Source: a virus. Taken from it: DNA of 64,000 nucleotides. Of this stretch, positions 3,654 to 56,591 are shown one piece after another. A model generated the notes under the pieces. That model was not told where the DNA came from and ran no database searches. It saw nothing but the letters and a program-made list of their open reading frames with translations. The position numbers were made by a program, and so were the translations under genes. The stretch lies in the IMG/VR virus record IMGVR_UViG_3300025096_003363, positions 1 through 64,000 of that record; one strand, 5' to 3'. The number at the start of each line of letters is the position of its first letter. Within the stretch, counting starts at the first letter, position 1.

Positions 3654-5192
3654 TTAGAAGTACACTGACTGAGAAGCCGGAGTAAACGCAGTACCGAGTC
3701 CCTGAACAATAACTACATGGTAGTAGAGATCAGCCCCGAAGATGTTGTCAACAACACCATAACGAGTAAGCAAGCCAACACGTGGCGCGAAGTCGTTAGG
3801 ACCAATAGTTCTCTGAACCATGACAGGAATGTAAGGACAATAAATGATACCAGTGTCGTAGAACTCAGGACCTTTGTAACCAAGCAACGCATACTCGATG
3901 TTAGCAGTACCATTTGAGTCATACTGATTAACATTAGGATTGTTGTAGTAACTAGAGTTCTGAACCTCTGTTCTGGTATCACGGTAAACGTTGAATCTCC
4001 CACCGAGTGAACCAACCTTTGCAATACCAACAGGCTGCGTGTTAACATCACCCTGCACAGGCACCCACTGAAATTCAGGGAGCATCTCGAGGATGGCGCA
4101 AACACGAGGAGTAGCAACAACAAAGTTAGCTGCTCCACGTCTGTTACGTACGGCGATACGATTGGCTTCGATGATAAGACGTTGATAGAAGTCCCTATTA
4201 CGCTCGACCATCCAACGACCATCTGCAGAAGCAGGTGACCAGAGGGAGTAGCCTTTGTTCAGTCCAGCTCCGAGAGCCGACTGGATCATTCTCATGAGCA
4301 TTTCACGGTCGATCTCAGCCTGAATCTCATACGACATAGCGTTTGTGATCTCGGCGTCAATATCGATACCATTCATGTTCTTAAGATCTTGCTCAAGTTC
4401 GACAGACCAACGTGCGCCAAGACGGCGTGTGCCGGCCTCAACTGCTGTTTTCTCGAACTTAACCTCGACCTGAGGAATGTTACCAGTAATCTCGAAAGCG
4501 GAAAGAATCTGAGCGACACCTTTATCTTGCGCAGTGAAGGCCCAAGTTGAACCATCAGGAGTACCACTCAACCGTGTCGAAGACGTACCGGTGAAGCGGG
4601 TATCAAGAAGTTGGTATCCAAGTTCATCACCCGGAAGACCGGCAGCGCCATCATATATCTTGTTATCTCCTGCAATCGTTGGATGCGAACCAGGCGTAAA
4701 TCCTGGACCTGTAGTACCAGATCCAATAGGATTGGTAGTAGCATCACCAGTACCATCAGTACCGGCTCCAAGATAAGTAGACTCGTAAGCATAACGAAGA
4801 GCAAAAGCAAGTCCAACAGGACCTGACATAGGCTGGACACCAACGATTTCGTTAGTGATAAGCTCAGGGAACGTACGACGAATCATCGGGATAAGCACTT
4901 TAGGAAGACGAGCGTCACCAGGAGCATAATTATCATTCGACCCGGTAGTACCAGGCGGAGAGAATATGTTCGAAGTAGAAGCACCGCTACCGAAGGCTCC
5001 ACCGTGACCGGCGGAGTTTGCTTCTTCAATACACCACTTTTCCTGGTTCTCAAGAAGAATGGCGGTATTTAAACGGGTATGATCGTCTTCAATGGGCTTA
5101 ACACTATCAGAAGAATATTCAAGAACAGGTGCCCACTTCTCAAGAAGTGTATCTGCTCTATCTCTATCTATAAATGACTGTGGTTTGTTCAT
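3654..5192 (-). CDS. gp23: Major capsid protein gp23
   Basis: 512 residues, close to the 521 of T4 gp23. It forms the hexameric HK97-fold capsid shell. Recognisable segments are the N-arm (AGHGGAFGSG... YAPGDARLPKVL, residues 61-100), IPMIRRTFPELITNEIVGVQPM and RWSVELEQDLKNMNGIDIDAEI. A predicted gp21 cleavage site is IEE/A at residues 55-58, matching removal of the first 65 residues in T4. Gene order gp20-gp21-gp22-gp23 is conserved. No ATAAATA box lies in the 86-nt gap before it. Instead there are two small hairpins and an AAGGAAA ribosome-binding site 9 nt upstream of ATG, one of few good Shine-Dalgarno sites in the window. Confidence 0.97.
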   Translation of the reverse strand: MNKPQSFIDRDRADTLLEKWAPVLEYSSDSVKPIEDDHTRLNTAILLENQEKWCIEEANSAGHGGAFGSGASTSNIFSPPGTTGSNDNYAPGDARLPKVLIPMIRRTFPELITNEIVGVQPMSGPVGLAFALRYAYESTYLGAGTDGTGDATTNPIGSGTTGPGFTPGSHPTIAGDNKIYDGAAGLPGDELGYQLLDTRFTGTSSTRLSGTPDGSTWAFTAQDKGVAQILSAFEITGNIPQVEVKFEKTAVEAGTRRLGARWSVELEQDLKNMNGIDIDAEITNAMSYEIQAEIDREMLMRMIQSALGAGLNKGYSLWSPASADGRWMVERNRDFYQRLIIEANRIAVRNRRGAANFVVATPRVCAILEMLPEFQWVPVQGDVNTQPVGIAKVGSLGGRFNVYRDTRTEVQNSSYYNNPNVNQYDSNGTANIEYALLGYKGPEFYDTGIIYCPYIPVMVQRTIGPNDFAPRVGLLTRYGVVDNIFGADLYYHVVIVQGLGTAFTPASQSVYF

Positions 5193-5278: not shown

Positions 5279-6133
5279 TTATTTGTGAGTTCTTTTAAGT
5301 TCCTCCAAGTATGGATTAGATGAGTTCTCTTTTTTCTTCTCTGAAATCTTTGGTCGTGGGGCATCAGTTTTGACCTTTCGCTGTGTAAATGCCTCCTCTT
5401 TAATAACACTAAGTCTTTCTTTTTCCTTTTTATCAAAAAGCCTTTCTGTGTAATCAAAATTTTCTTCAATAAATTTTGGTGACTTATCATGAAGAATCTT
5501 TATCATATACTCTTTCTTTTTACCTGTTAAATGTGCAGTTTTAGACTCTAATACAAGATCTGCTTTTGTTTTAGTATATGCTTCTTTAAGAAGGTTATTT
5601 TCTTTTTTAAGCGCTGTAACTGTTTGTGACAACTCATCAATCTGTGTCTTACCGTCGACAACCGCCTCTTTAACAGACTCTGCCATAAGAGAAGAATCAA
5701 CAGCAAGAACCTTTCTTAAATTAGCAAGAACTTCACGTGATGTTCTGTTTTTGGTTGCTTCTTCAATAGCCTGTGTAGGTACAGCTTCATTAATATACTC
5801 TTCTAGGTAATCTGAAATACTTTCAACTAAAGTCGACTTGAACTTACTAGCTCTACCATTAAGCTCGCTTTCATAACGCTTTACAACAGTAATAAGCTTA
5901 TTGGCGTTGTTATGATCAACAGCTTCAACCACTCTTTTAAGTTTATTTGTATGATCTTTATCAATTGCGCCTACTAACTCCTCAAGTTTTTCAGCATAGA
6001 GCTCATCTTGATTCGTTAAAGCAGCTTCAACTGATAATTGAATTTTTTCTTCAATAGCAGTTTCAATTTCCTTAACAGACTCTTCTGTTAATACCTCTGC
6101 TGCTTGTTCTGGTAATGCTTTTTCGTTCTTCAT
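5279..6133 (-). CDS. gp22: Prohead scaffold (core) protein gp22
   Basis: 284 residues, strongly charged and predicted almost entirely helical/coiled coil, as for T4 gp22 (269 aa). It nucleates the prohead core and is degraded by gp21 during maturation. Many [LI]xE-type sites (for example VEAALTNQDELY and LRKVLAVDSSLM regions) suit protease digestion. It sits immediately upstream of gp23 and 2 nt after the small core-like gene. Identity rests on gene order, length, composition and the LLKEAYTKTKADLVLESKT-type central segment; sequence identity to T4 itself is low. Confidence 0.88.
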   Translation of the reverse strand: MKNEKALPEQAAEVLTEESVKEIETAIEEKIQLSVEAALTNQDELYAEKLEELVGAIDKDHTNKLKRVVEAVDHNNANKLITVVKRYESELNGRASKFKSTLVESISDYLEEYINEAVPTQAIEEATKNRTSREVLANLRKVLAVDSSLMAESVKEAVVDGKTQIDELSQTVTALKKENNLLKEAYTKTKADLVLESKTAHLTGKKKEYMIKILHDKSPKFIEENFDYTERLFDKKEKERLSVIKEEAFTQRKVKTDAPRPKISEKKKENSSNPYLEELKRTHK

Positions 6134-6287: not shown

Positions 6288-6294
6288 TATTTAT
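6288..6294 (-). promoter_or_regulatory. Late promoter box ATAAATA
   Basis: ATAAATA, then ATATT (5 nt), then the ATG at 6282. It overlaps the stop codon of gp21. Confidence 0.7.
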
Positions 6295-6959
6295 TATATA
6301 GATTTAATAAAGCTAAGGATTCTGTCACGTAAAAAGGTATCAATCTCCTTTTTAGGGAGCTTTTCTAGTGATTTTTCGAAATTTTCGTATACTTCGGTGT
6401 ATTTATCATTACCAACAAGCACCCATTGCTTTGATTCTAAGATTCCATTTACAAATGCCTTGGGGTAGGATGGGTCTGCAACACAGTCAATAGCTACAAG
6501 TTTCATATTTTTTACAGTACTATGATCGCTACTCTCTTCAAGGGTTCCTAATGCGCGTGAAGACATACCAACTTTTACACCGTCGTTAATAAGAGATCTA
6601 ACTATTTGACCGCAGGGTGTAGATAAAACTTTTGATTTACCATAAAACACATTCCCGTCTTGCTTTAATTCGGTTACCATGTGGCAGGCTCTTTCTAGAT
6701 CAACATCTGCTGTAGTTGGGTGATTTAGCTCTCCCATTGCGCGACCAGGCTTGATCATCTCTTCAACATATCGTGTTGCTTCTCTCTCTAACTCGTCTAA
6801 TGGATAAAGCCGGTTGTTTTTGTTTACACCCTCAGCCATCATATAAGGGCCTTTTATATATAAATTGGAAGGGGAGTTTCTATCTACTTCTTCTTCAATG
6901 TATTCGAACTCATCGTTCACATCGGGTTTTTCCACAACCAAGTTAAGTTTTAACGCCAT
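6294..6959 (-). CDS. gp21: Prohead core protein protease gp21
   Basis: 221 residues, like T4 gp21 (212). A serine protease of the herpesvirus-assemblin type that cleaves capsid and core proteins during head maturation. The catalytic His is in GELNHPTTADVD (about residues 76-87) and the Ser in KVGMSSRALG (about 129-138). The following VAIDCVADPSYPKAFVNG is the conserved strand after the active site. It lies between the gp4-like gene and the core/scaffold genes. The late box CTAAATA is 5 nt before ATG. The substrates probably include gp22, gp23 and the cargo candidates at 34751-42889. Confidence 0.95.
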   Translation of the reverse strand: MALKLNLVVEKPDVNDEFEYIEEEVDRNSPSNLYIKGPYMMAEGVNKNNRLYPLDELEREATRYVEEMIKPGRAMGELNHPTTADVDLERACHMVTELKQDGNVFYGKSKVLSTPCGQIVRSLINDGVKVGMSSRALGTLEESSDHSTVKNMKLVAIDCVADPSYPKAFVNGILESKQWVLVGNDKYTEVYENFEKSLEKLPKKEIDTFLRDRILSFIKSI

Positions 6960-18562: not shown

Positions 18563-18569
18563 ATTTAAT

Positions 18570-18597
18570 ATTATATTATAAATATGTTGAGGTTCAA
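18570..18597 (-). promoter_or_regulatory. Early-type promoter TTGAAC-N16-TATAAT
   Basis: -35 TTGAAC at 18592-18597, 16-nt spacer, -10 TATAAT at 18570-18575, then 7 nt to the ATG at 18562. A second overlapping TATAAT lies 5 nt upstream. It drives the operon down to the helicase. Confidence 0.8.
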
Positions 18598-19452: not shown

Positions 19453-19497
19453 TGATGTCGGTGTGTGATATTTAATGTGATAAAGTTTTCATTCAAC

Positions 19498-20172: not shown

Positions 20173-20178
20173 TTTATA

Positions 20179-22458: not shown

Positions 22459-22460
22459 TG

Positions 22461-24017: not shown

Positions 24018-24018
24018 T

Positions 24019-24807: not shown

Positions 24808-24815
24808 TTTATATA

Positions 24816-25688: not shown

Positions 25689-25693
25689 GGCTT

Positions 25694-33180: not shown

Positions 33181-33187
33181 TTCTTTA

Positions 33188-33216
33188 ATTATATTAACAA
33201 CCTGGTGTGAATTCAA
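33188..33216 (-). promoter_or_regulatory. Early-type promoter TTGAAT-N17-TATAAT
   Basis: -35 TTGAAT at 33211-33216, 17-nt spacer, -10 TATAAT at 33188-33193, then 7 nt to the queE ATG at 33180. It abuts the + strand CTAAATA late box of phoH at 33217-33223. Confidence 0.78.
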
Positions 33217-34750: not shown

Positions 34751-35956
34751 TTAACTGGAAAGCAGAGTCAACTGTCTTAGCAGATCTTTTTGATTAGTTC
34801 CTTCTTTAATGACCCCTTGCTTAATTAATCCCGCTTTAAGCTTATCAATTTCATCATCTTGTAACTTAACACTTTCATCTCTACCGGTAATCTTTACAAT
34901 TGTTTCTGTATTAATCTTTAGCGCAGGTGCTAATGTAGCCGCGGTAATAGGTGAATTTTTGTCTTTAAAAGTTTTTATAGTCACATCAAACGGAGACAGT
35001 TTAGGTTTACTTTCTTTCTTAGGTTGCTTTGCACCTCTTATAATAGCCGTTGGATCTCCCTCCCGGTATATATCACCAAGCTTTAAGCCATCTTTTGTTC
35101 GAAATATTTCTGCTACAAACATTCCCTCGTCGTAGTCTGATGGTGTATCTTCTTTCTTTTCTTTTGTTTCTGTAAACTCTATCTCATACCCCGGTTGAGC
35201 TTCTTGTAAAGTCTTTAACAACTCTATAATAACCTCATCATCTAAACTTTCTAAAAATTTTACTCGACCCATTTTCATGTAGTCAGAAAATTCCTCTTGC
35301 TCTTCATCAGGTAAATCAACAACCCCGAGTTCAGGCTTTCCTTTATATGTAAACTCCGGAATATTTGGACGCGCCTCTGTTATATACTTGAGAAAACCTT
35401 TCATGTTTTTACTGATATACTCAGTTACGTCCCTTGCGGAATCCTCCTTAACACCAGACTTAACTAAAGAACCAATGATTTGTTTCTTCACCGACCCCTT
35501 CTTACTAACAGGGTTATATTTTCCCTCTTTACTTCTAGACCCGGGACCATGCCCCATCGCCGCTCGAGCTTCCTTTATAGTACCGGCGTCAGCACCTTCA
35601 TATTCTCTTGTACCTTTATCATATAAGACACCCTGAAACGGAATTAGGGTTACAGTTTTTGGGCCGACAATTCTACCGAGGTAACCCTTTTTACCACTAG
35701 CTTGCTGCTTTGTAATACCCTTCTTATTAATTTTAACTATTTCTATGCTCGGGTCATTAGCTAGTTCCTTTTTAAGAACCGCGATCGGTTGTTCACCCTT
35801 ATAAGATTTCGTCATTCCCTTTACAAGCTTACCGGTATCAAGATTTATACCCTGTTGAGCGGCTTGCTTTACACCCGCTGCCGCGGCTTTCGCTATTCCA
35901 CGTATCTTATCTGAAAATCCCTCTTCAAGCAGCTCCTTTTGTGACAGTTTTGCCAT
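34751..35956 (-). CDS. Late hypothetical protein with LLEEGF N-terminus
   Basis: 401 residues from the ATG at 35956; a TTG two codons earlier is discounted. Lysine-rich, no membrane helix. The N-terminus MAKLSQKELLEEGFSDKIRG ends in LLEE/G, a [LI]xE prohead protease type site, then GIAKAAAAGVKQAAQQG. The centre (PKTVTLIPFQGVLYDKGT and PGSRSKEGKYNPVSKKGS) is basic. A CTAAATA box lies 6 nt before ATG. I do not recognise a domain; the processed N-terminus plus late promoter suggests a capsid-internal or virion protein. Confidence 0.65.
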   Translation of the reverse strand: MAKLSQKELLEEGFSDKIRGIAKAAAAGVKQAAQQGINLDTGKLVKGMTKSYKGEQPIAVLKKELANDPSIEIVKINKKGITKQQASGKKGYLGRIVGPKTVTLIPFQGVLYDKGTREYEGADAGTIKEARAAMGHGPGSRSKEGKYNPVSKKGSVKKQIIGSLVKSGVKEDSARDVTEYISKNMKGFLKYITEARPNIPEFTYKGKPELGVVDLPDEEQEEFSDYMKMGRVKFLESLDDEVIIELLKTLQEAQPGYEIEFTETKEKKEDTPSDYDEGMFVAEIFRTKDGLKLGDIYREGDPTAIIRGAKQPKKESKPKLSPFDVTIKTFKDKNSPITAATLAPALKINTETIVKITGRDESVKLQDDEIDKLKAGLIKQGVIKEGTNQKDLLRQLTLLSS

Positions 35957-35962
35957 ATACAA

Positions 35963-35969
35963 TATTTAG
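35963..35969 (-). promoter_or_regulatory. Late promoter box CTAAATA
   Basis: CTAAATA, then 6 nt, then the ATG at 35956. Its upstream edge is 2 nt from the -35 box of the divergent folE promoter. Confidence 0.65.
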
Positions 35970-35971
35970 TC

Positions 35972-35998
35972 TTGAAAACAAAAATTAATATATATAAT
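35972..35998 (+). promoter_or_regulatory. Early-type promoter TTGAAA-N15-TATAAT
   Basis: -35 TTGAAA at 35972-35977, spacer 15 nt, -10 TATAAT at 35993-35998, then 7 nt to the folE ATG at 36006. Confidence 0.75.
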
Positions 35999-36005
35999 AT
36001 AAGAT

Positions 36006-36662
36006 ATGGATCGAACTAAAGTTACTAAATTACCGACGGCTAATGGTAATATGCCTCTAACAGGTGTAGAAAAGGAAGAAATTATTGAAGATGCAGCAAA
36101 GGCTTATGAGAAGTACCTAGATGCGCTTAGAATTGACTGGCGAAACGATCCTAATAGCGATAATACACCTAAAAGAGTAGCAAAAGCTTTTGTAACTGAC
36201 TTAGCTGCTGGTTGTTATAACGAACTTCCAAATGTTACAGCATTTCCATCAGATGGATACGATGGAATGGTGTTTCAAGGTGGTATTCCTGTTAAGTCAT
36301 TTTGTTCACACCACCATTTACCGTTTTCAGGTAGAGCTCATGTAGCTTATATACCGTCTCCGAGCGGAAAGGTCATTGGATTGAGTAAATTAAACAGAAT
36401 TGTTGAGCATTATGCAAGAAGACCGCAGATTCAAGAAGGTTTAACCATGCAGATTCATAAAGCTATTGATGAAATTTGTGAAGGTAATAAAGGAGTTGCT
36501 GTTATGATTTCTGCTACTCATACATGTGCTTGTCTAAGGGGAATTAAGCACGATGGGTGTGAAATGAAGACTAGTCGACTTAGTAGTGACTTTTTAGATG
36601 ATATTGCTACTAGAAATGAGTTTTATCAGTTTGTGTCTGACTGGAGAGGTCAATGTATCTAA
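36006..36662 (+). CDS. folE: GTP cyclohydrolase I (FolE)
   Basis: 218 residues, full length. [20 protein letters not shown] carries the zinc Cys and His residues, [20 protein letters not shown] is the conserved catalytic block, and [21 protein letters not shown] has the second zinc Cys. Makes 7,8-dihydroneopterin triphosphate from GTP, which QueD then uses; this is the entry to preQ0. Early promoter. The stop overlaps the retropepsin-like gene stop by 4 nt. Confidence 0.95.
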
Positions 36663-37099
36663 TAAGATGCCTCTATTTCTTCATCAGCGATGTTTTCTTG
36701 ACTAACATCAATAAGAGCACCTAGCTCTTTTTCAATAAAATCCTTACTTACTAAGATTTTAAATAGGTTTGTAGATCTATCGCCTACTGAAAAGGGTATA
36801 TCTTTAAATTCCTTGTTGCCGATTTTAAGATCGAAGTTAACTACAGGTCTTTCTTCAGTATTACCAGCACCGACATTAATAACAATAGTATCTACCTTAT
36901 CCTTTATAAGATGTTTGTTGTTAACTGTCTTAAAAAGCACTTTATTACCCTGCACTTGTATATCTTCCCCATGAATAACGTTAAATGCACCGTTACCAGA
37001 GTCGAGTTTTGATGGAATTTTACCAATACCATCTACATCAAAGAACTCGATGAGTCCTAAGACTTGTTTTTCTAAAAAGAACCGGTTAAAATTTTTCAT
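36659..37099 (-). CDS. Retropepsin-like / RimB-type protease domain protein
   Basis: 146 residues. After an [11 protein letters not shown] peptide comes [26 protein letters not shown], the pattern of ATP-dependent zinc protease/retropepsin-like (DUF785) proteins, where a DTG-type loop is DSG here. [25 protein letters not shown] strands follow. T4-like marine phages carry similar proteins of unknown role; a peptidase active in the capsid is possible. The N-terminus resembles T4 capsid-targeting sequences. Late box 9 nt before ATG. Confidence 0.55.
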
Positions 37100-37108
37100 A
37101 GCAACTGC

Positions 37109-37115
37109 TATTTAT
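37109..37115 (-). promoter_or_regulatory. Late promoter box ATAAATA
   Basis: ATAAATA, then 9 nt, then the ATG at 37099. Confidence 0.6.
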
Positions 37116-37123
37116 GATTATGG

Positions 37124-37471
37124 TCAAGTGTTTTCAATATCCTCGTACCCTACATTAAATTGATCCACTACTTCAACTTCATCAACTACCTCTTCACCTA
37201 TATCTACCGCTACAGAGATAGTAGCACCAGCAGCTGTAGCTAATTCAGCTATAGCACCAATTGCCTGAGCGGCTATAACCGCTATATCTGGTGTCACGTT
37301 ACCACACTCTTCCGATTCAACCTCAGGGACCGGCATTTCATCACCCGTAATAAGAGGTCCCACGGCTCCAATAGAAGCAGTTTGTGCACCATGACCTAGA
37401 CCTATACTCTCCTGTACCTTATGGTAGGCGTGTTCTAGAAGTTGTTTCTCTTTACGCTTCTCATCTCTCAT
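37124..37471 (-). CDS. Small acidic late protein with hydrophobic segment
   Basis: 115 residues. A charged N-terminal helix (MRDEKRKEKQLLEHAYHKVQ) is followed by a long small-residue hydrophobic stretch (VIAAQAIGAIAELATAAGAT, about 67-86) that could cross or insert in a membrane, then an acidic tail. No family recognised. The late box is 5 nt before ATG. It may be a virion-internal protein; a membrane-active segment in a capsid-carried protein would suit DNA delivery, but this is speculation. Confidence 0.6.
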   Translation of the reverse strand: MRDEKRKEKQLLEHAYHKVQESIGLGHGAQTASIGAVGPLITGDEMPVPEVESEECGNVTPDIAVIAAQAIGAIAELATAAGATISVAVDIGEEVVDEVEVVDQFNVGYEDIENT

Positions 37472-37476
37472 ACTAT

Positions 37477-37483
37477 TATTTAT
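37477..37483 (-). promoter_or_regulatory. Late promoter box ATAAATA
   Basis: ATAAATA, then ATAGT (5 nt), then the ATG at 37471. It lies at the 3' end of the adenylyltransferase-like gene. Confidence 0.7.
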
Positions 37484-38019
37484 GCTAGTATGGCCTTTAT
37501 TTGATCTCTATCCTCAATGGATATTTCCTCGGGTACAAAATAATCTAACGCTTCGTCAATATCTTGCTGTATTATTTGTCTTGTCTCACTACCAGATATA
37601 CCTTCCTCCTGCATTGGTATCTTTACCACATTCACATAAGGGTACTTTTCAACATTATCCTGAAAATACTTGTATCGTTTAACATCCGCATCCTTTTCAC
37701 CCGCACCAACTAACAATGTTTTATCTAAATTTGCATCAGCGAAGTCGTAAACAGCCTTTACAGGGTTAGGTACATACACAACCTCTACATTCTTATCAAA
37801 ATATCTTGAGTATATCTTCCATATTTGTTCAGACTGCTCAGGTGTAATACCTTCACGCTCCTTACCACCAATAAATACGACACCTCTATCAGCATCATCA
37901 AGCAAATACCTTAAAGCATTAAAGTGACCCTTTGTAGGCGGTTTAAATCCACCGGGAAGCAGAGCGATTCGCTCAACTCTTGTCTCCATATCTTCAAAAT
38001 ATTCTATAAATGTCCTCAT
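37480..38019 (-). CDS. NMN adenylyltransferase-like nucleotidyltransferase
   Basis: 179 residues. An MRTFIEYFEDM N-terminal peptide precedes IALLPGGFKPPTKGHFNALR, in which TKGH is the (T/H)xGH nucleotide-binding motif; EEGISGSETRQIIQQD is the C-terminal ISSTxxR-like motif. These define the NMNAT/cytidylyltransferase fold. The substrate may be NMN (making NAD) or another mononucleotide or phospho-alcohol. ATG overlap with the next gene upstream (38016) couples it to the KxDG protein. The N-terminal peptide is like T4 capsid-targeting sequences. Confidence 0.75.
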   Translation of the reverse strand: MRTFIEYFEDMETRVERIALLPGGFKPPTKGHFNALRYLLDDADRGVVFIGGKEREGITPEQSEQIWKIYSRYFDKNVEVVYVPNPVKAVYDFADANLDKTLLVGAGEKDADVKRYKYFQDNVEKYPYVNVVKIPMQEEGISGSETRQIIQQDIDEALDYFVPEEISIEDRDQIKAILA

Positions 38020-39224
38020 GACCCGGGTTTATCTTTTTGAAAGTTAGCTGAACTAAAATCTAATCTGTTAACAAGCTTAACAGCATTACCATCTCTATCA
38101 ACCGCTACATATCCCTCTGGAGAAGTAACTCTCAACTTACCTTCACCCTCGTCGATAAAGTGTTTAGTGTTATAAACAGCATTATTGTACTTGTTAATAA
38201 AGATTTGCTTAGCCTGTGATAATAAACTACTAACCTTAAACAGATTAACTATGTCATCCTTTTGAGCTTGGAACTGAGCTGTTTTTTGCTTAAGAGTTTC
38301 TTCTAATCTTTGCTTTCCACGCTTAGATTTTCTCTTATCAACCTCTTTATTAATTCTAGTAGTATACCATTCAATAAAGTTTCTATAAGACTCTTCTGGA
38401 TCATTTAAGAACTTACCTTCTCGAATCTCCGTATTAATATAAGGGTTGAGAAGATCAGAAGGTAAGTCCTTGTAATCTATTTTGATTGAATCAGCGGTTT
38501 TTATTAAGTCTCTAACCTGCTTTACTTCATCTTTTGTTAAATTTACAACGCCTGTATCGTCTTTAAAGTAGGCATCATCAAACCAAACACCTGGAACCTG
38601 CTTCAACCGGTTAACTTTAGCACCAAACGCCGCCGGGCTGTCTAAATCGTTATATTCTGTATGGAATATGATACCAAACACGGAGTTAGCTATCTTTTTA
38701 CCTAGATCTGAATTAGCCTCTACTGCATATTTGATCGTATTAGGTTGAAATGTGTAATGAACTACACCATCTATGTTCTCTTTCTTAACCGATGAAGAAT
38801 CAAACATAAAATCACCCTGCATTATGTTCTTAATACCTAACTTAGGTAGATATTTTAAAGCCTTCTTAAGTTTATCCGCTAAACCAGGGGCATGCCCGTG
38901 ATTAACTTCAACATCTTGGTCATTATAGTTAATTTTAGGCTCTTTATTAAAGACAGCCTTAGTACCAACAAAGAATTTACCGGTATCAGGGTGCTTTCCA
39001 GCAAAGATAGCAGGGGCTCCATCCCATTTTACCGTAGTACCGATCTTTCTTTTACTCTTTCCTTGTAAATGGCCGAGTAAATTAGTTAAAAAGCCCCTAG
39101 CCTGGTCATAACCACCCTTACCTCTTGTAAGGATCAGTTCTTCTAAGTGTGTAAGGTGTGTATTAGCCTTAGCTTCCTCGATTAACTCTAAGTAATGTTC
39201 GAAATATAGTTTAAAGTTTTTCAT
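38016..39224 (-). CDS. Putative KxDG covalent nucleotidyltransferase (ligase-like)
   Basis: 402 residues. Usually annotated only as hypothetical in such phages. K66-W-D-G (TVKWDGAPAIFAG) is a perfect motif I of ATP ligases and capping enzymes; QGDF (136-139) could be motif III, FGIIFHTEY (183-191) motif IIIa, EGYVAVD (370-376) motif IV and VKLVNR (382-387) motif V, with a 180-residue helical insertion between. The N-terminus MKNFKLYFEHYLELIEEAK contains an IEE/A prohead-protease-type site and resembles capsid-targeting peptides. If active it would join or adenylate RNA or DNA ends. The assignment is mine from motif order. Confidence 0.5.
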   Translation of the reverse strand: MKNFKLYFEHYLELIEEAKANTHLTHLEELILTRGKGGYDQARGFLTNLLGHLQGKSKRKIGTTVKWDGAPAIFAGKHPDTGKFFVGTKAVFNKEPKINYNDQDVEVNHGHAPGLADKLKKALKYLPKLGIKNIMQGDFMFDSSSVKKENIDGVVHYTFQPNTIKYAVEANSDLGKKIANSVFGIIFHTEYNDLDSPAAFGAKVNRLKQVPGVWFDDAYFKDDTGVVNLTKDEVKQVRDLIKTADSIKIDYKDLPSDLLNPYINTEIREGKFLNDPEESYRNFIEWYTTRINKEVDKRKSKRGKQRLEETLKQKTAQFQAQKDDIVNLFKVSSLLSQAKQIFINKYNNAVYNTKHFIDEGEGKLRVTSPEGYVAVDRDGNAVKLVNRLDFSSANFQKDKPGS

Positions 39225-40592
39225 TTATTTTATTGTTAAGTTATAACCTCCGCGTCCCCCACCTGTATTAGGTGAAATAGTAATACTGTCACCTAATTCG
39301 AATAATTTCTGTATAGAGCTGGTTGCATATTCCCTGTAACCCTTTCCCTTAAAGGGGCCTATTGTTACCATGTTAAAGTTATCCTTATTAAAGAATAAAA
39401 AGTAATTAAAGCCTTGACCCTTTTCTTCTTCTTCTTTAAAATATTCTGCTATTTGAAACCCAGCAGCTATTTTACGGCCCTTTAACTCCGGATCACCAGC
39501 CGCATCTAAAAAGGAATCAATAATACTAACTGCACTATCTGGTTCAGATGAAAATTCCGACAAACCAGCTACTAATTTTTCACGTGGTGCTTTAGCAAAA
39601 AAACTATTTGTAATTATAGCCTCACCAGCATCTCTCATTTTAAGTTCTTCTCTTTGATCAGCTAAATATTTTGTTACATCAATACCTTTACTATCTTTTA
39701 TATTCTCAAAATAATCTCTACGCCGTACATCCTTTTCAACCAACTTTAACTTAGTCTCTAAATCGTAACTACTATTATCAATAACACTAATTACCCGGTC
39801 AACAACGCGTTGTTGTGCTGGAGCTACATTAAATTCGTAATCTTTTATAGCACTAAACACAGTCTGAATTATATTTTCATCTATATTGGCTTCTTTTAAT
39901 TGAAGTTTTGCAAATTTATTAAAGTTACGTATTAAACCTAACGTTTTTCCCTTACCCGGTCTACCTGCACCTGACTTGACCTCAACCAACGATCCATCTG
40001 GTAGTGTTATATCACCCTCTTTTGGATTTTTACCCTCTGAAAACAATGTTAAAACCGCCTCCCCGGGCCCAACTCCAACTGCCCCCTCTTCAAAAGTTAT
40101 CTGTGACATTAATTCGACAGCCTTTCTATTTGTTACATGCTTAAGATCGTATTTAGCTCCTAGTTTTTCAATTACACGTAAAAAATTAGCTGTTCCCTTA
40201 TTTAGCGCTTGTTGTAAATCTGATAATCTGTTTGAATTTTTTAAACGAGTTAATCTTTCTACTTCATCATAAAATTCTTCCCTAATACCCACGTTATCTA
40301 ATTGTATAGACTTAGCATATATGTCATTTATTCGAACACTTAAATTATAGATAGCCGAAGGGCTATCCCAACCCCCTGATTCAACCCAGTCGTTAATTAC
40401 ACCAATTGATGTATTCTGTTTACCTAATCTTAATAACTTTCTAGCTTCGTCTTGATCTATTTCAACCTCTTTAATATTACCATCGTCAAACTCTATAGTT
40501 ACTTTTGCTTCATCTAGTACATGAAGATGTTCACGAGGTGGAATATTACCACGTACCCGCTTTTTATAAACGTCTTCTAATGACCATTGCAT
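39225..40592 (-). CDS. PD-(D/E)XK-like nuclease-fold protein
   Basis: 455 residues. The core GPGEAVLTLFSEGKNPKEGD followed by ITLPDGSLVEVKSGAGR gives E178, D194 and E204-x-K206, spaced as in PD-(D/E)XK nucleases. The rest is helical; the C-terminus has FNYFLFFNKDNFNMVTIGPF and a Gly-rich end (NTGGGRGGYNLTIK). No CTS-like start (MQWSLEDVYKKRVRG). It lies between two CTS-type genes with 2-nt and 0-nt gaps, and may be a capsid-borne or packaging-associated nuclease. Confidence 0.6.
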   Translation of the reverse strand: MQWSLEDVYKKRVRGNIPPREHLHVLDEAKVTIEFDDGNIKEVEIDQDEARKLLRLGKQNTSIGVINDWVESGGWDSPSAIYNLSVRINDIYAKSIQLDNVGIREEFYDEVERLTRLKNSNRLSDLQQALNKGTANFLRVIEKLGAKYDLKHVTNRKAVELMSQITFEEGAVGVGPGEAVLTLFSEGKNPKEGDITLPDGSLVEVKSGAGRPGKGKTLGLIRNFNKFAKLQLKEANIDENIIQTVFSAIKDYEFNVAPAQQRVVDRVISVIDNSSYDLETKLKLVEKDVRRRDYFENIKDSKGIDVTKYLADQREELKMRDAGEAIITNSFFAKAPREKLVAGLSEFSSEPDSAVSIIDSFLDAAGDPELKGRKIAAGFQIAEYFKEEEEKGQGFNYFLFFNKDNFNMVTIGPFKGKGYREYATSSIQKLFELGDSITISPNTGGGRGGYNLTIK

Positions 40593-40594
40593 GA

Positions 40595-40939
40595 TTAGTG
40601 TGCGTCTACAGTTTCAAGCTCTTGTTCAACGGTCTCGTCAGAAAATTCAACTAACCTTTCTATTGTTTCAATAACCTTTCTAGGCTGTGTCCTCCCAAAC
40701 TCTTTGTTGACCTGTGCAGCAATGTTTATATCTTGCATATTAGGTGCATATATAAAGGCATTAGTCAACAGCTCAGCAACATATATTTCACCTTCTGGAG
40801 AAATGCCTGTTGGCGCTGGGGGAATATCTGCAACATCAGTAGCATCCGCTTCGACATCGACGTTAACGTCAACCTCCTCTACTTCATCCTGCTCAGAATA
40901 AAGCTCTTTATATTGTTCAAATAGTTTTAATGTTTTCAT
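40595..40939 (-). CDS. Small acidic late-cluster protein
   Basis: 114 residues, very acidic centre (VEEVDVNVDVEAD). N-terminus MKTLKLFEQYKELYSEQDE is amphipathic and close to the T4 capsid-targeting type (MKTYQEFIAE). The second half is helical (LLTNAFIYAPNMQDINIAAQ). No family recognised. It is in one operon with its neighbours (stop 2 nt before the next ATG). A capsid-internal protein is suggested by start peptide and acidity. Confidence 0.6.
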   Translation of the reverse strand: MKTLKLFEQYKELYSEQDEVEEVDVNVDVEADATDVADIPPAPTGISPEGEIYVAELLTNAFIYAPNMQDINIAAQVNKEFGRTQPRKVIETIERLVEFSDETVEQELETVDAH

Positions 40940-40941
40940 AA

Positions 40942-41349
40942 TTATTGTTCTGTGGGTTCTGTGGCTTTATCTCTTATTGCTTGTTTTAACTCTTCTGTCT
41001 TCTTTTGAAAAACTGATACAGCGTCTTTTGCTACTCTCTGTCTTTCCTTTACAGCTTTTTTAGCGCCTCTAGCACCGGAAAACATACCACCTTGATTTGC
41101 TAATCTGTTAACCTCTCTATCAACATCATATTTCTCAGGCCCGGTTTGAATTTCTTGATCTTCCACAGGAATAAGCGGAACCTCTATACCACCAACACTA
41201 TCCTCAAAAGCTAAAAAATTCTCAAAAGGCGATCCAACACCAGATATTGCAAAACGTCTCATTACTTTACCATTAACATCCTTCAACTCTACAGTATATT
41301 TGTCCTCACCTGGTCGATTCTCTTCTAACAGTTTAAGAAACTTATTCAT
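40942..41349 (-). CDS. Small late protein with MNKFLKLLEE start
   Basis: 135 residues, charged. The N-terminus MNKFLKLLEENRPGEDKY has LEE/N, a [LI]xE-type cleavage site, following an amphipathic helix. The middle KVMRRFAISGVGSPFENFLAF is beta-like; the C-terminal third is a Lys/Glu-rich coiled coil. No known domain. Its late box lies 5 nt before ATG. Confidence 0.6.
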   Translation of the reverse strand: MNKFLKLLEENRPGEDKYTVELKDVNGKVMRRFAISGVGSPFENFLAFEDSVGGIEVPLIPVEDQEIQTGPEKYDVDREVNRLANQGGMFSGARGAKKAVKERQRVAKDAVSVFQKKTEELKQAIRDKATEPTEQ

Positions 41350-41354
41350 GTATA

Positions 41355-41361
41355 TATTTAT
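41355..41361 (-). promoter_or_regulatory. Late promoter box ATAAATA
   Basis: ATAAATA, then TATAC (5 nt), then the ATG at 41349. It overlaps the end of the upstream gene. Confidence 0.7.
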
Positions 41362-41870
41362 GGAAGTAGTGAGAGTTTTATATTCACATTAGCAAGAAAC
41401 TCTTTCTCTAAGTGCTTTAGATCATATCTTTTAAGAAAGTTCCGAAAGTTTCTAAAAGACAATTGAGCCTCAGTAGGGCTTTTCCATACTTCATAGTCCT
41501 GTCCTTCAATAAATTCCCTAAATCCTACCTCATCATACTTAATTATACTCGGCAGCGTGTTAAAAATACGCCTTACAAGCTGATGTTCAATGACTTTTTT
41601 ATCCACCTTGTAATAAAACAGCTTTTTATGCTCTTTATCTATTTTAACAGCATGTATTATCTGCTTTAGTATAAAATGAATACCAAGCTTGTTTTTATCA
41701 TGTCGATTTAACCTTAAATCGTTTTCAACGAGGTGATAATTATACTCATTAAAGGATTTAGTTAAGAAATAATTAAGATTCATTATAGTCTTATGAATCT
41801 TCGGTACATAGAGATGGCTACTTTCGTCGTTTACCGATTCTAAGGTTGATGATTCCATTATAGTAGTCAT
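41358..41870 (-). CDS. Hypothetical protein (170 aa)
   Basis: 170 residues from the ATG at 41870 with AAGAG just upstream; an ATG at 41858 is also possible. Rich in Tyr, Lys, His and Phe, mostly helical, with YVPKIHKTIMNLNYFLTKSF and KKVIEHQLVRRIFNTLPS. The C-terminal RNFRNFLKRYDLKHLEKEF is a basic helix. No family recognised. It overlaps the GIY-YIG gene by 53 nt, an unusually long overlap for this genome. Confidence 0.6.
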   Translation of the reverse strand: MTTIMESSTLESVNDESSHLYVPKIHKTIMNLNYFLTKSFNEYNYHLVENDLRLNRHDKNKLGIHFILKQIIHAVKIDKEHKKLFYYKVDKKVIEHQLVRRIFNTLPSIIKYDEVGFREFIEGQDYEVWKSPTEAQLSFRNFRNFLKRYDLKHLEKEFLANVNIKLSLLP

Positions 41871-42228
41871 CTCTTAACAATACTTCTTCTTTAAATTGTA
41901 ATCTAGCTTCGTAATAACTCAACTCCCACTTAGAATCACACCATCTAAGGATTTCGAACTTAAAATTACCTTTACCGAGTACACTTATATGCTCATTAAG
42001 CTGATTTGACGAAGAAGTGTACCCCTTCCAGTCAGTTTCGACTTCATACCGTCGTTTATTCTTCTTTCCCTTTAAAGGCGGTCGCTTTCTAATACACTTA
42101 CACTGCTTTTTACCAATATACTTCTTATCATTAGTAAGATTTGTTATCTTATAAATGAAACCGTAAGGTAAGTCCGTCCCTTCCTCGAGGATCCCCTCCC
42201 AATGTCCTAAATCACTCACTCTATCCAA
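41818..42228 (-). CDS. GIY-YIG-like endonuclease domain protein
   Basis: 136 residues. GFIYKITNLTNDKKYIGKKQ (residues 23-42) is the GIY-x10-YIG strand pair (GFIY and KYIG here). GYTSSSNQLN and ELSYYEARLQF with the catalytic-type Glu follow at the expected positions. The start is TTG at 42228, overlapping the ParB-gene stop; a GTG at 42219 is an alternative. It could be a homing endonuclease-like DNase, a repair/recombination nuclease, or a capsid-carried nuclease. No intron is evident here. Confidence 0.72.
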   Translation of the reverse strand: MDRVSDLGHWEGILEEGTDLPYGFIYKITNLTNDKKYIGKKQCKCIRKRPPLKGKKNKRRYEVETDWKGYTSSSNQLNEHISVLGKGNFKFEILRWCDSKWELSYYEARLQFKEEVLLRDDYYNGIINLRIGKRRK

Positions 42229-42889
42229 ATACGCTTAACCACTCATCCGGTACTTTTGATAAATCTAATACCTTAGCCTGTATATTATCGTCTCCTAGTT
42301 CAACAGCTTTATGTAATCTATGATTACCATCTAATATCATATCATATTTACCACTATTCTTTGTAATAATAATAGGATACTTCAAATCAGCTTTCATAGC
42401 CCTATCATATGTAGACTTTACTTGCTCCGGAGTCTTATTAGGCTTGTGTCGTGTATGTATGTCTAAATGAGCGACACCCTCTACTGGGATAGAGATAACA
42501 GGCGATTCTAATTCCGCTAGCTTACTCTCTACATCCTGCATCGTGATGGTAAGCTTACCATCAGACCATGTGGTATCTTCGTACCCCGGGTGAGTATCCT
42601 CTTCTCCCTCTTCGCCAGTTAAAAACACCCCATCTATACCATCAGTTTCTTTCTTTTTCTTCTTTTTCTTACCAGTAGAACCTTTACGTGTTTGAACCTT
42701 ACCCTTACCCAACACTTTAGGCACTCTTGCATCACCTGGTGCGTATGTATCGCCGGAGTCAATAGTATCAGGTGGACTATAGACTGCATGTCCAGATGGG
42801 CCGTCACCAAATACACCACCAGCACCAGCTGTCATCGACTCTTTTAACATCTTAAAAAATAACTGTTCAAATCTACCACTTGATTCCAT
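42221..42889 (-). CDS. ParB/sulfiredoxin-like domain protein with a gp23-like N-arm
   Basis: 222 residues. The C-terminal third has KYPIIITKNSGKYDMILDGN then HRLHKAVELG, the ParB-like nuclease/NTPase fold (DGNHR in place of GERR). Residues 18-60 align without gaps to residues 58-100 of this phage's own gp23 (25 of 40 identical over 21-60), including YAPGDARxPKVL, and LKE at 15-17 matches the gp23 IEE cleavage site at 55-57. A run of seven lysines separates the two parts. It is probably processed by gp21 and built into or packed in the capsid. Late box 8 nt before ATG. Confidence 0.72.
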   Translation of the reverse strand: MESSGRFEQLFFKMLKESMTAGAGGVFGDGPSGHAVYSPPDTIDSGDTYAPGDARVPKVLGKGKVQTRKGSTGKKKKKKKETDGIDGVFLTGEEGEEDTHPGYEDTTWSDGKLTITMQDVESKLAELESPVISIPVEGVAHLDIHTRHKPNKTPEQVKSTYDRAMKADLKYPIIITKNSGKYDMILDGNHRLHKAVELGDDNIQAKVLDLSKVPDEWLSVFG

Positions 42890-42907
42890 TGTAACTATAT
42901 TTATAAT
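42880..42907 (+). promoter_or_regulatory. Early-type promoter TTGATT-N16-TATAAT (uvsY)
   Basis: -35 TTGATT at 42880-42885, spacer 16 nt, -10 TATAAT at 42902-42907, then 6 nt to the GTG start of uvsY at 42914. The -10 overlaps the divergent late box at 42898-42904. Confidence 0.78.
42898..42904 (-). promoter_or_regulatory. Late promoter box ATAAATA
   Basis: ATAAATA, then 8 nt, then the ATG at 42889. It shares three bases with the -10 of the opposite uvsY promoter. Confidence 0.65.
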
Positions 42908-44754: not shown

Positions 44755-45201
44755 ATGGCCGCAAAAGAGAAAAAAGAGAAAAAACCATATTATATTGAAC
44801 CTAAAGTCTTTAAAGCATCGTTACAAAAGTACTATGACACTGATATTCTTACTGACGACTTAGCAGAAAACATTAAAAAAATTGCTTATGGTCTAAGTTA
44901 CAACGCATCATTTATCAACTATACCTATAAAGACGATATGATTGGTGATGCTCTTATTAAAATGTATTCTGCACTAAAATATAAAAAATTTGACTTTTCA
45001 AAAGCTACAAATCCCTTTTCCTACTTTACAACTATTGCATATCATGCGTTTATTAACAGAATTAAGAAAGAGAAAAAGCATCATGAAGCCGTTACAAAGT
45101 ATAGAGAGCGTGTATATGAAGATTATATGTCCAACCCGGATAATACACATGGACATGTTTACGTAAAACCAGCAGACGAAGAAAATTCTTTTGAAGATTA
45201 G
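44755..45201 (+). CDS. gp55: Late sigma factor gp55
   Basis: 148 residues. The sigma region 2-like core is DDMIGDALIKMYSALKYKKF then DFSKATNPFSYFTTIAYHAF then INRIKKEKKHH, conserved among T4-type gp55. It recognises late boxes such as the ATAAATA elements found across this window. T4 gp55 is 185 residues. The early promoter suits a factor needed for late transcription. The last 11 nt overlap gp47. Confidence 0.9.
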   Translation: MAAKEKKEKKPYYIEPKVFKASLQKYYDTDILTDDLAENIKKIAYGLSYNASFINYTYKDDMIGDALIKMYSALKYKKFDFSKATNPFSYFTTIAYHAFINRIKKEKKHHEAVTKYRERVYEDYMSNPDNTHGHVYVKPADEENSFED

Positions 45202-54449: not shown

Positions 54450-55179
54450 TGGGGGAATGGACTCATCTGTGCTGTTGTATATGGCACAAGATAGAGGCTA
54501 TGATCATATACATACCATAACCTTTGACTATGGTCAAAGGCATAAACAAGAACTCGCTTGTGTTAAAAAACAAATTAATAATTTTAATAACATGTTTAGC
54601 GGGTGGTTTAATTTAAAGATTACTAATAAGGTCTTAGATGTAAAGTATATTAAAGACATTGCGCCTACCTCATCTTTAACTAATAAAGATATTGATAATC
54701 CTAATATTAGCGAGATGGCAGGTGATGCACAGCCTGTCTCATACGTACCGTTTCGGAATTTAATGTTTCTATCTATTTGCTCGTCATATGCTGAAAGTGT
54801 AGGTGCAGATACAGTATGGTATGGTGCTGCACAGGTTGATTCACTAGCTGGGTATTGGGACGGTAGTGAAGAGTTTGTTAATGTAGTTAATGAAGTAACA
54901 GATCTTAATAGAGAGAACAGAATTAACATTGAAGCACCGCTTCTTGACATGTCGAAGGCTGCAATTGTTAAAGAAGGAATTAGACTAGGAGTTACATATG
55001 GTGATACATGGACATGCTATTCGAATAGAGAAGATGGGCTAGCTGATGCCACAACTCCGTCAAGTAGTATGCGAATAACGGGGTTTATTGATGCTGGGTA
55101 TGAAGACCCTATTCAATATGTCCAACAGGAAAAGTTGGATGACCTATACAAAGAAAATAACTGCAAGGAGTGTGCTTAG
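54421..55179 (+). CDS. queC: 7-cyano-7-deazaguanine synthase (QueC) lacking the usual zinc Cys cluster
   Basis: 252 residues. PP-loop LSGGMDSSVLLY (residues 9-20), TITFDYGQRHKQEL, VSYVPFRNLMFLS, INIEAPLLDMSKAAIVKEG and GDTWTCY (C199) are QueC. The usual CxxCxxC zinc cluster after it is replaced by ADATTPSSSMR, while the C-terminus gains C248-KE-C251. The zinc site may thus be rewired (C199, C248, C251) or lost. Converts CDG to preQ0 with ATP and ammonia. Starts inside the uvsX end, so it is co-expressed with uvsX. Confidence 0.9.
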   Translation: MKKKLVLTLSGGMDSSVLLYMAQDRGYDHIHTITFDYGQRHKQELACVKKQINNFNNMFSGWFNLKITNKVLDVKYIKDIAPTSSLTNKDIDNPNISEMAGDAQPVSYVPFRNLMFLSICSSYAESVGADTVWYGAAQVDSLAGYWDGSEEFVNVVNEVTDLNRENRINIEAPLLDMSKAAIVKEGIRLGVTYGDTWTCYSNREDGLADATTPSSSMRITGFIDAGYEDPIQYVQQEKLDDLYKENNCKECA

Positions 55180-56591
55180 AGACCGTAGCGTCTAAGCTCT
55201 TCTAGCTGCCAGTGTGTCTTAGGCTTGTATTTTTCCTTAAATGACTGACTTTTAACTTCAGTCAGTTTATTACGTTTGTCAGAAGCTACTTGCTCGTTAA
55301 TATAACGGGAAGTATCGGTTTGATGTGAGTCGAGCATTGGACTGTAACTAAAGTCCTCTTCTAGTGTCTCTTCATTCTCTCCATTTAATTTCTTTTTTGC
55401 ATGCTCTCTTTTATCATCATCGACAAGAGCATCTAAAACATCTTCGTAATCGGTTGAAGGGATATAATCCTCCGGCTGCTCTTTAGTTAAGAAATGATCA
55501 AGCTCTAAGCCACCAAATTCATCATCCTCTTCATCACTGACATTTGCTCTAAACTGACATCTTTTTTTAGCTAACTTTGATGGAGGCGATGCACAATACT
55601 GACTCATTGACTCACCAGCTGCTTTTGCGGCTCTAGTTAAAGCGCCTTCTGTCCCCTTCTTCTTCATACCCTTAACTGCACCCTGAATCCAATCTTCATT
55701 ATCTTCTGGTGTAGTAAGACCACCTCCCTCTTCACCCATTGAATACTCATCAGGCATACCCTCCGGTTCGTCTATTCCATAACCCACTTGCTCATCTTCG
55801 TCTGGAGCCATAACAACAACTACACTATCACTAATTTTATCAACGTCTCTCTTTAGCGCTGCTTCAATCTTATCAATACCGTGTGCTATAACTGCTTTAG
55901 CAAGCGGCGTTCCAGGGTCAACTGAAAACTGTACAGTATCATTACTAATATCTAAACCATCCTCATTAGCATACTTAGAAACGATATTACCGACATCTTC
56001 AACACGCTCAGCATCTCTAATTTTAATCTCAATAAAGGTAGTTGGATCTGCTTTTGAATCTTCTAAGCTTTGCGCTAATTCTTGTTCTGCGTCATCCAAC
56101 TGACCAACTGTATCTTCAACCGCGTCCCCTACATCTGCACCTGCTTTAATATCCTTTGCGAGCTCTATAGCAGCTTTTTGCGCCGCGTATTTTTCTTCTC
56201 TTCCTCTATTAGTAGTAGCTCTATTAATATACGTCGCGAGACCGTCTTTTATTGCATCAGCAATCTCATCTTTACTTTTTTCAATTTCTCTTTCCTTAGA
56301 ATCTAATAAAGCTAATAAGTTATTCTTTTTAGCAGAAAACCCTGTACCCCTTTTCGCAGCATTCAATTCTTCATCACTAATTACCTCGAGATCATATAAT
56401 ACCGTTCTAATAAAGTTAATTGTATCTAATGGTGCAGAACTAAACCCCGCAGATCTTAGCTCTCTTGTAACAGGACCGAAAGAAGGGTGATATTTTTCAT
56501 AAGGAGATTTTTTAGCTTCCTCGAGAAACTCTGACCTGTTGAATAAATCATTAAAGCCACTAAAATTGTCGGTGTAGTTAAAGGAACTCAT
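55176..56591 (-). CDS. Large acidic late protein on the - strand of the replication block
   Basis: 471 residues, acidic and low-complexity in parts (EDEQVGYGIDEPEGMPDEYS, EEDDEFGGLELDH), long helical stretch near 90-170. The N-terminus ...NRSEFLEEAKKSPYEKY contains LEE/A, a [LI]xE-type prohead-protease site. TATAAATA lies 6 nt before its ATG. No domain recognised. A late, antisense-oriented gene in the early block is most simply a virion or capsid-internal protein. Stop overlaps queC by 4 nt. Confidence 0.65.
   Translation of the reverse strand: MSSFNYTDNFSGFNDLFNRSEFLEEAKKSPYEKYHPSFGPVTRELRSAGFSSAPLDTINFIRTVLYDLEVISDEELNAAKRGTGFSAKKNNLLALLDSKEREIEKSKDEIADAIKDGLATYINRATTNRGREEKYAAQKAAIELAKDIKAGADVGDAVEDTVGQLDDAEQELAQSLEDSKADPTTFIEIKIRDAERVEDVGNIVSKYANEDGLDISNDTVQFSVDPGTPLAKAVIAHGIDKIEAALKRDVDKISDSVVVVMAPDEDEQVGYGIDEPEGMPDEYSMGEEGGGLTTPEDNEDWIQGAVKGMKKKGTEGALTRAAKAAGESMSQYCASPPSKLAKKRCQFRANVSDEEDDEFGGLELDHFLTKEQPEDYIPSTDYEDVLDALVDDDKREHAKKKLNGENEETLEEDFSYSPMLDSHQTDTSRYINEQVASDKRNKLTEVKSQSFKEKYKPKTHWQLEELRRYGL

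Follow-up and report, generated by a model that had tools for sequence, protein, structure and literature searches.

The closest described systems are those of T4-like phages that pack proteins into the head. In T4, the internal proteins (IPs) IPI–III and Alt have a capsid targeting sequence (Mullaney and Black 1996, cited in PMC9026906), and the IPs are injected into the host (PMC9026906, PMC12373910). Capsid targeting sequences have been suggested to be a general device of T4-like phages (PMC9026906). Mutant data on the T4 sequence MKTYQEFIAE indicate that residues 4 and 7 act in targeting, whereas residues 8 and 10 allow processing; an Asp at position 10 blocks processing, not targeting (PMC9026906). 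Many ip genes of T-even phages were recognised by the leader that they have in common (Repoila 1994, cited in PMC12373910), and IPs block GmrSD enzymes. Here we describe a cassette of 11 minus-strand genes, running from position 42889 down to 34751, in the virus record IMGVR_UViG_3300025096_003363. The window, i.e., the whole stretch analysed, comprises bases 1–64,000 of this 98,842-base record of an uncultured phage. We conclude that the cassette very probably encodes a head-loaded set of enzymes, probably injected.

The record is T4-like: it has a major capsid protein, a portal, an S77 prohead protease, a gp15-type tail sheath stabiliser, and gp55. The nearest cultured relatives are Kyanoviridae. 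One cassette gene, encoding a DUF6267 protein, matches 406 phage records altogether, the best phage matches being Pelagibacter phage HTVC008M and cyanophages.

N-terminal leaders of the cassette genes

The initial annotation held that adjacent genes of this region share capsid-targeting-like N-termini, and quoted six of them. All six match the minus-strand translations exactly (genes 36659, 37480, 38016, 40595, 40942, and 34751, each named by its lower coordinate; Table 1), and their likeness is borne out by comparison with the rest of the genome, as follows. For residues 2–11, the mean pairwise BLOSUM62 score of the 11 cassette genes, a motif-free measure, is −3.5, versus −8.76 ± 1.13 in random 11-gene sets from the same genome; none of 20,000 such sets scored as high. 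Later windows of the cassette proteins score −7.2 to −10.8, which is background. That is, the likeness is confined to the first 10 residues. Position shuffling gave p = 0.004.

The T4 rule for residues 4, 7, 8, and 10 gives a similar picture. It is obeyed by three of the 11 cassette genes (36659, 37480, and 40942) and by none of the 101 others (p = 7e-4, Fisher), and at internal methionines by 2 of 359. Gene 38016 satisfies positions 4 and 7, and the remaining leaders merely resemble these or are of a longer type (39225). Across related loci, 18 of 324 clusters obey the rule, versus 6 of 1342 internal methionines (p = 4.5e-9). The leader of gene 37480, MRTFIEYFED, carries Asp at position 10, and from the T4 data its protein is expected to be targeted and packaged yet uncut. 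A heptad regular expression applied to the first 22 residues matches five of the 11 cassette genes and 1 of the 101 others (p = 2e-5). One of the five matches, that of the GIY-YIG gene 41818, is probably coincidental: the gene encodes a SegE-type homing endonuclease, has no credible leader, and was dropped as a cargo candidate. Gene 41358, likewise without a credible leader, was left out.

The quoted six are not the whole set. Overlooked were a 28-residue leader ending in LDE↓A on the PD-(D/E)XK gene 39225 (arrows mark predicted cleavage sites or the equivalent junctions) and, in the ParB-like gene 42221, both a leader ending in LKE↓S and a copy of the capsid arm, described below. The initial annotation also held that several leaders contain an [LI]xE site. 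Of the six quoted, genes 34751 (LEE↓G), 38016, and 40942 (LEE↓N) have a canonical site, and the sites of 36659, 37480, and 40595 are non-canonical; the site of 42221 is canonical as well. A bare [LI]xE says little alone. It gains weight here from its position and from the phage's own gp23, which has IEE↓ANSAGHGG where T4 gp23 has LTE↓A. Sites of this kind end the leaders of the DUF6267 protein (LIEE↓A) and the PD-(D/E)XK-like protein (LDE↓A).

The first cassette gene, 42221, is preceded by TATAAATA (Table 1), the core of the T4 late promoter. This sequence is depleted in the window (6 copies versus 14 expected by shuffling), except at a few late promoters; other copies lie 6 bases upstream of the portal gene gp20 and 6–8 bases upstream of gene 55176. 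In relatives, each of the 16 homologous upstream regions listed retains the copy that precedes the cassette. Late expression alongside the head genes matches the need of an operon for head cargo.

Leader exchange and tagged proteins in virions of relatives

Leaders were compared among 80 related contigs. Homologous bodies can differ in their leader, with the junction at E↓A, as in MQFDELVKQILE↓AKEAPKGKHY of contig L023 versus MKSFKYYFFE↓AKEAPKGKHY of L039. Conversely, one leader can stand on unrelated bodies: in L045, MKTFKQFFYE↓A precedes a cytidylyltransferase and MKTFKQFFEK a retropepsin-like protein, and in L039 MKTFREYFEE and MRTFREYFED precede bodies unrelated to each other. Among unrelated pairs from the same locus, 39 of 3,828 have like N-termini, versus 1–2 for any later window.

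A different dialect, MKLL[LFM]ENWRx[YF], heads at least 195 open reading frames at no fewer than 124 loci (viral contigs L238–L357, L053, and L090), with up to 8 copies per genome; the reversed pattern gave no match. The bodies fall into at least 89 families without mutual blastp match, a lower-stringency count that may hide remote homology among some. They include zeta-toxin-like kinase, RNase T exonuclease, protein kinase, and ART-PolyVal-like domains. Among the matches listed, the leader is followed by [LIVMF]xE in 186 of 195. Twenty contigs of this dialect were searched for an S77 protease, which was present in all eight longer than 150 kb and in 1 of the 12 shorter fragments. Within one genome, an identical run of 24 DNA bases often recurs in these leaders, as if the leader DNA drives cassette exchange. 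The related contigs L069, L078, and L087, from a different lineage, have a possible other dialect (MKKKDIIQLVKKIVKE, MTKKELRELIKSTIKE, and MKKSQLRNIIKEEISKVLNE) on unrelated genes.

Proteins with such leaders are reported from virions of relatives. The non-structural proteins of the S-CREM2 virion include S-adenosylmethionine (SAM) hydrolase or lyase, an APH-like kinase, a cytidylyltransferase, gp13, gp136, and a protein annotated as Cas9-like (PMC10665884, Table 3). The first five begin with MKDFDSFLEE, VKRFDAFLTE↓E, MKNFSSFLTE↓A, MKDLHSFLTE↓Q, and MQTFSMFFSE↓D, respectively, and the protein annotated as Cas9-like has RFASFMAE↓A from about residue 18. The T4 rule picks out 5 of 15 virion non-structural proteins, none of 28 virion structural proteins, and 1 of 118 undetected proteins (p = 5e-5). 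This anchored rule alone was significant; a loose heptad expression across all S-CREM2 proteins was not (p = 0.065).

The cytidylyltransferase, an NMN adenylyltransferase (NMNAT)-like enzyme, is reported from the virions of S-SM1 (PMC3037559) and S-SZBM1 (PMC9146016, Table 1). In S-SCSM1, whose cassette lies between mazG and primase, the record labels genes 89–93, 95, and 97 'virion protein', this enzyme among them. The leaders in S-SM1, S-SZBM1, and S-SCSM1 are MKKFSAFLNE↓A, MRFRQFIIE↓A, and MKSFLQFLKE↓A, and in environmental homologues the leader ends in F[IL]xE↓A in 22 of the 22 listed (e.g., MRFIEFIRE↓A, MNFTQFLRE↓A, and LTFHVFITE↓A). The DUF6267 protein of S-SZBM1 begins with MAKNTHLEHLEDD, has no leader, and is missing from the virion list of that phage, which fits the model as a single case. 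Thus, the proposal that T4-type leaders mark head-packed enzymes gains support from the S77 protease, the shared leaders, the exchange at E↓A, and tagged homologues in four cyanophage virions.

A side observation concerns S-SCSM1_93 (L180:46627-46836), a virion protein of 69 residues with a leader-like KRTFKEFLEYIE at its C-terminus. In T4, Alt likewise undergoes cleavage at the C-terminal end (PMC9026906).

Predicted cargo bodies, a capsid-arm copy, and genome context

The enzyme assignments of the initial annotation stand to differing degrees. Gene 38016 matches the DUF6267 family (Table 1). The NMNAT and retropepsin matches fall below family cut-offs. For the retropepsin-like gene 36659, PF05618 scores 22.8 bits against a cut-off of 27 bits; its DSG and ILVxKDF motifs are conserved, and the family profile matches 9g58 (E = 3.6e-7) and also 2pma. 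A RimK-fused relative in Pelagibacter phage Mosig passes PF05618 with 28 bits. This Mosig protein (L005:7035-8420) joins a RimK-like ATP-grasp domain to a C-terminal RimB/retropepsin-like domain and has a leader, MQVQPFKNYLEE↓A. HTVC008M, Melnitz EXVC044M, and Mosig (EXVC030M) are cultured relatives with a cassette of this type; the candidate leaders of Melnitz include MKKFSEIIE↓A, MQGFKTFLSE↓A, and MKNFKNHIAE↓E.

Gene 37480 scores 14.7 bits with PF01467, against a cut-off of 21, and its phage homologues are annotated as NMNAT. It has the motif KPPTKGH, of which both prolines, the G, and the H are invariant in homologues. Among homologues, some with as little as 18% identity, the leader columns M1, T3, F4, E6, Y7, and F8 each show 90% conservation or more.

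In gene 38016, KWDG, QGDF, EGYV, and K383 follow one another in the order of the covalent nucleotidyltransferases (KxDG motifs I, III, IV (EG), and V (K)); KWDG, GD, EG, and K are invariant across 26 homologues. A fold search of the PDB with its AlphaFold model (mean confidence score, pLDDT, 75; below 50 in the first 24 residues) gave no match. In gene 39225, E178, GD194, and E204xK206 are invariant in 10 sequences, and the predicted model has a pLDDT of only 38. Thus, both functions rest on motifs. The leader of 39225 hardly varies among homologues whose bodies share 19–28% identity. It occurs in 28 stretches, always on this one body family, which supports a conserved leader, not exchange.

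In other lineages, the NMNAT-like and DUF6267 domains of genes 37480 and 38016 form one fused protein of about 630–1,380 residues, a hint that they work together, e.g., on NAD or RNA ends. Examples of the fusion are L060:8045-11227, L079:61-4215, and L083:3810-5714, and there are others. Ideas on cargo function (NAD or RNA ends, protease, or ligase roles) are put forward with low confidence.

The ParB-like protein 42221 has a second feature behind its leader. Residues 15–60 match residues 55–100 of the phage's own gp23 over 46 residues without a gap, maturation site included: LKE↓SMTAGAGGVFGDG...SPPDTIDSGDTYAPGDARVPKVL in 42221 versus IEE↓ANSAGHGGAFGSG...SPPGTTGSNDNYAPGDARLPKVL in gp23. The Smith–Waterman score is 140, against a shuffle maximum of 55 and 26–41 with the capsid proteins of other phages. 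A capsid-protein query recovers the arm in cassette genes of related contigs. S-CREM2 gp160, detected in virions, and S-SCSM1_97, marked as a virion protein, have copies of their own group's quite different arm (scores 95 and 83). This co-variation of arm and copy holds between phage groups (140 versus 26–41) and is not pair-specific among close relatives. We suggest that 42221 may dock by imitating the N-terminal arm of gp23, a possible second docking signal.

Table 1. Cassette genes, late promoter, and related head and regulatory genes of the window
Feature	Position	Strand	Evidence and remarks
ParB-like protein	42221..42889	-	PHROG ParB-like matches; leader MESSGRFEQLFFKMLKE↓S, then 46-residue capsid-arm copy, then lysine-rich stretch
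Unassigned-family protein	40942..41349	-	Leader MNKFLKLLEE↓N; fits T4 4/7/8/10 rule; relatives retain leader
Small acidic protein	40595..40939	-	Leader MKTLKLFEQYKELYSE; resembles other leaders; site YSE non-canonical
PD-(D/E)XK nuclease-like protein	39225..40592	-	28-residue leader MQWSLEDVYKKRVRGNIPPREHLHVLDE↓A
DUF6267 protein, nucleotidyltransferase/ligase-like motifs	38016..39224	-	PF19782 E=2.3e-98; N-terminus MKNFKLYFEHYLELIEEA, leader MKNFKLYFEHYLELIEE↓A
NMN adenylyltransferase-like (HxGH) protein	37480..38019	-	Leader MRTFIEYFED; phrog_3041 cytidyltransferase E=1.3e-4
Unassigned-family protein	37124..37471	-	Leader MRDEKRKEKQLLEHAYHKVQE↓S possible (relatives have VNE); weak
Retropepsin-like (RimB/'ATP-dependent zinc protease' type) protein	36659..37099	-	PF05618 E=9.6e-5, below curated cut-off; follows T4 rule
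Unassigned-family protein	34751..35956	-	N-terminus MAKLSQKELLEEGF, leader MAKLSQKELLEE↓G; leader retained in L023, L039, L057, L063
T4-type late promoter TATAAATA	42898..42905	-	8 bases upstream of ATG of first cassette gene (42221)
gp21-type (S77) prohead protease	6294..6959	-	PF03420 E=2.2e-33; phrog_207 head maturation protease E=2.8e-55
gp23-type major capsid protein	3654..5192	-	phrog_138 E=1.6e-82; predicted maturation site IEE57↓A58
Probable gp22-type scaffold	5279..6133	-	Between gp21 and gp23; many [LI]xE sites
Portal gp20	9021-10829		T4-like head gene
gp55-type late sigma factor	44755..45201	+	phrog_234 E=3.4e-26
Candidate further virion protein	55176..56591	-	Own TATAAATA promoter; N-terminus ends FLEE↓A

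Family searches gave nothing above cut-offs for the candidate scaffold and no match for gene 55176. Beyond the window, at 65792-66229 of the record (L002:2293-2730, minus strand), an isolated gene with no family match has a leader-like N-terminus, MTKFERRFFKSLNE↓Q. Elsewhere in the window are genes for GTP cyclohydrolase I (36006-36662, plus strand), a PTPS/QueD-like protein (33959-34663, minus), a radical-SAM QueE-like protein (32425-33216, minus), and QueC (54421-55179, plus). This near-complete preQ0 gene set suggests 7-deazaguanine modification of the phage DNA. Between the structural genes and the cassette, at about 14,870-32,400 on the minus strand, NAD-epimerase-like, sugar-nucleotide, and glycosyltransferase-like genes were read from open reading frames; the island probably serves surface-sugar or DNA-sugar modification.

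A loading model, its alternatives, and known systems

The model that we favour runs as follows. The cassette from 42889 to 34751 would be a late operon whose products are packed into the head. Short leaders, with a hydrophobic or aromatic residue at about positions 4 and 7, a hydrophobic residue at 8, and an acidic residue at 10, or longer ones ending in [LI]xE, would bring otherwise unrelated proteins into the prohead core. The predicted cargo comprises the NMNAT-like protein, the RimB/retropepsin-like protease, the KxDG nucleotidyltransferase-like protein, the PD-(D/E)XK nuclease-like protein, and other proteins. The gp21 protease would then trim most of these proteins, cutting off the leader at [LI]xE↓, and the lysine-rich ParB-like protein may additionally employ its copy of the capsid N-terminal arm, with its cleavage site. 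At infection the cargo would exit with the DNA and be the first to act in the host.

Several observations weigh against this model. The strict T4 rule covers just three of the 11 cassette genes, was chosen after the sequences had been seen, and was applied to a small set. A nine-column profile, built from T4 and virion-verified cyanophage leaders, picks out no more than a single gene of the window at the 1% level of the null, and in the same analysis HTVC008M has few good leaders. This profile is too narrow for the window dialect, which is judged by similarity, not identity, and it is therefore not our main test. The sites FLE↓K (36659), YSE↓Q (40595), FED (37480), and VQE (37124) are non-canonical. 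Several cyanophage-cassette proteins detected in virions lack a clear leader, and cyanophage proteomes may hold co-purified proteins: the S-CREM2 authors caution on contaminants (PMC10665884). The shared head-targeting leader argues against the contaminant reading of the S-CREM2 virion enzymes.

Three other explanations have been weighed. The leaders might be head-assembly tags on structural or core proteins that, in the manner of T4 gp67/gp68 or decoration proteins, are retained in the head instead of being injected. The capsid-arm copy of 42221 does look like shell docking, the set includes small proteins without a known domain, and syntenic cyanophage cassettes also carry S-layer-like and other proteins called structural. 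We consider this unlikely all the same, as bodies with enzyme signatures (NMNAT-like, retropepsin-like, KxDG, and PD-(D/E)XK; in relatives also SAM lyase, kinases, zeta-toxin-like, RNase T, and ART-like) would be odd building blocks and are freely exchanged between related phages. It is quite improbable that the N-termini are alike for some other reason (translation-start context, a membrane- or partner-binding helix, or descent of paralogues) and that the proteins act late in the cell, unpackaged. The genome is AT-rich with many MK starts, and the cleavage site of several leaders is non-canonical; against this, the likeness is limited to residues 2–11, leaders are exchanged at E↓A, tagged homologues are present in virions of four phages, and the listed ENWR leaders precede a gp21-type site nearly throughout. 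That short hydrophobic N-termini were simply selected by eye has very little to recommend it. The [LI]xE motif is short and common, and single-gene evidence is weak, yet the random sets, the Fisher test, and the related loci all speak against chance.

A broader proposal can be made, which we hold to be somewhat more likely than not: marine T4-like viruses would have a modular loading code, in which lineage dialects ending in a protease site pass between genes and load almost any enzyme for injection, with copying of the capsid N-terminal arm as a second route. The dialects may include MKxFxxFxxE, MKLLxENWRxYLxE, MQWSLEDxYxxxVxGxIPPRxHLxVLxE, and others, and the cargo may include kinases, ADP-ribosyltransferase-like proteins, zeta-toxin-like kinases, NMNAT, SAM lyase, and RimK/RimB-type proteins. 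If so, the leader would serve generally to predict which phage proteins, mostly uncharacterised, are injected effectors. From sequence, one could then predict what abundant marine viruses inject; a search of contigs for leaders gives hundreds of candidate effectors, including the 89 or more body families from one dialect. Targeting would also explain a standing puzzle, the presence of NMNAT, kinase, and SAM hydrolase in cyanophage virions, which one group left as possible contamination. Capsid-arm copying would offer a possible second docking route.

T4 IPI–III and Alt are among the closest known systems. The likeness extends to the residue pattern of the leader, the gp21-type protease, the [LI]xE sites of several leaders, and the unrelated bodies behind one leader. 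T4 cargo consists of small inhibitors and one ADP-ribosyltransferase, whereas the predicted cargo of the cassette is encoded in a contiguous late operon with several predicted enzyme types; in addition, some of its leaders are longer, and one gene has a capsid-arm copy. The polymorphism of T-even ip genes is matched by changing bodies behind a constant leader and by fast hot-spot exchange. The differences are that the phages at hand are marine and Kyanoviridae-like, that their proteins are predicted enzymes rather than small inhibitors, and that dialects are specific to lineages.

A search for literature joining capsid targeting sequences with Synechococcus phages found, within partial coverage that is no proof of absence, one jumbo-phage study in another context. 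What is new, as far as we have seen, is that leaders mark a predicted operon of enzyme cargo in marine T4-like phages and come in dialects, that cyanophage virion enzymes can be linked to them, and that the capsid arm is copied. The T4 principle, known since 1996, is here greatly widened, and a possible second docking signal is added.

The virion enzymes of S-CREM2, S-SZBM1, S-SCSM1, and S-SM1 have leaders ending in F[IL]xE↓A and a genome position that matches that of the cassette. The interval runs from mazG/gp41 to the primase in S-SZBM1, S-SCSM1, and S-SM1, and from gp55 to the primase in S-CREM2. The available parts of the cyanophage papers report these enzymes without naming a targeting signal, and the enzyme set of the window phage differs. 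P1 DarA/Hdf and the ejection proteins of phiKZ and SPN3US also reside in the head and pass into the host, and a prohead protease processes some of them (PMC5694885, PMC12810830). The SPN3US propeptides are mostly longer than 100 residues, in contrast to the short shared leader of the cassette.

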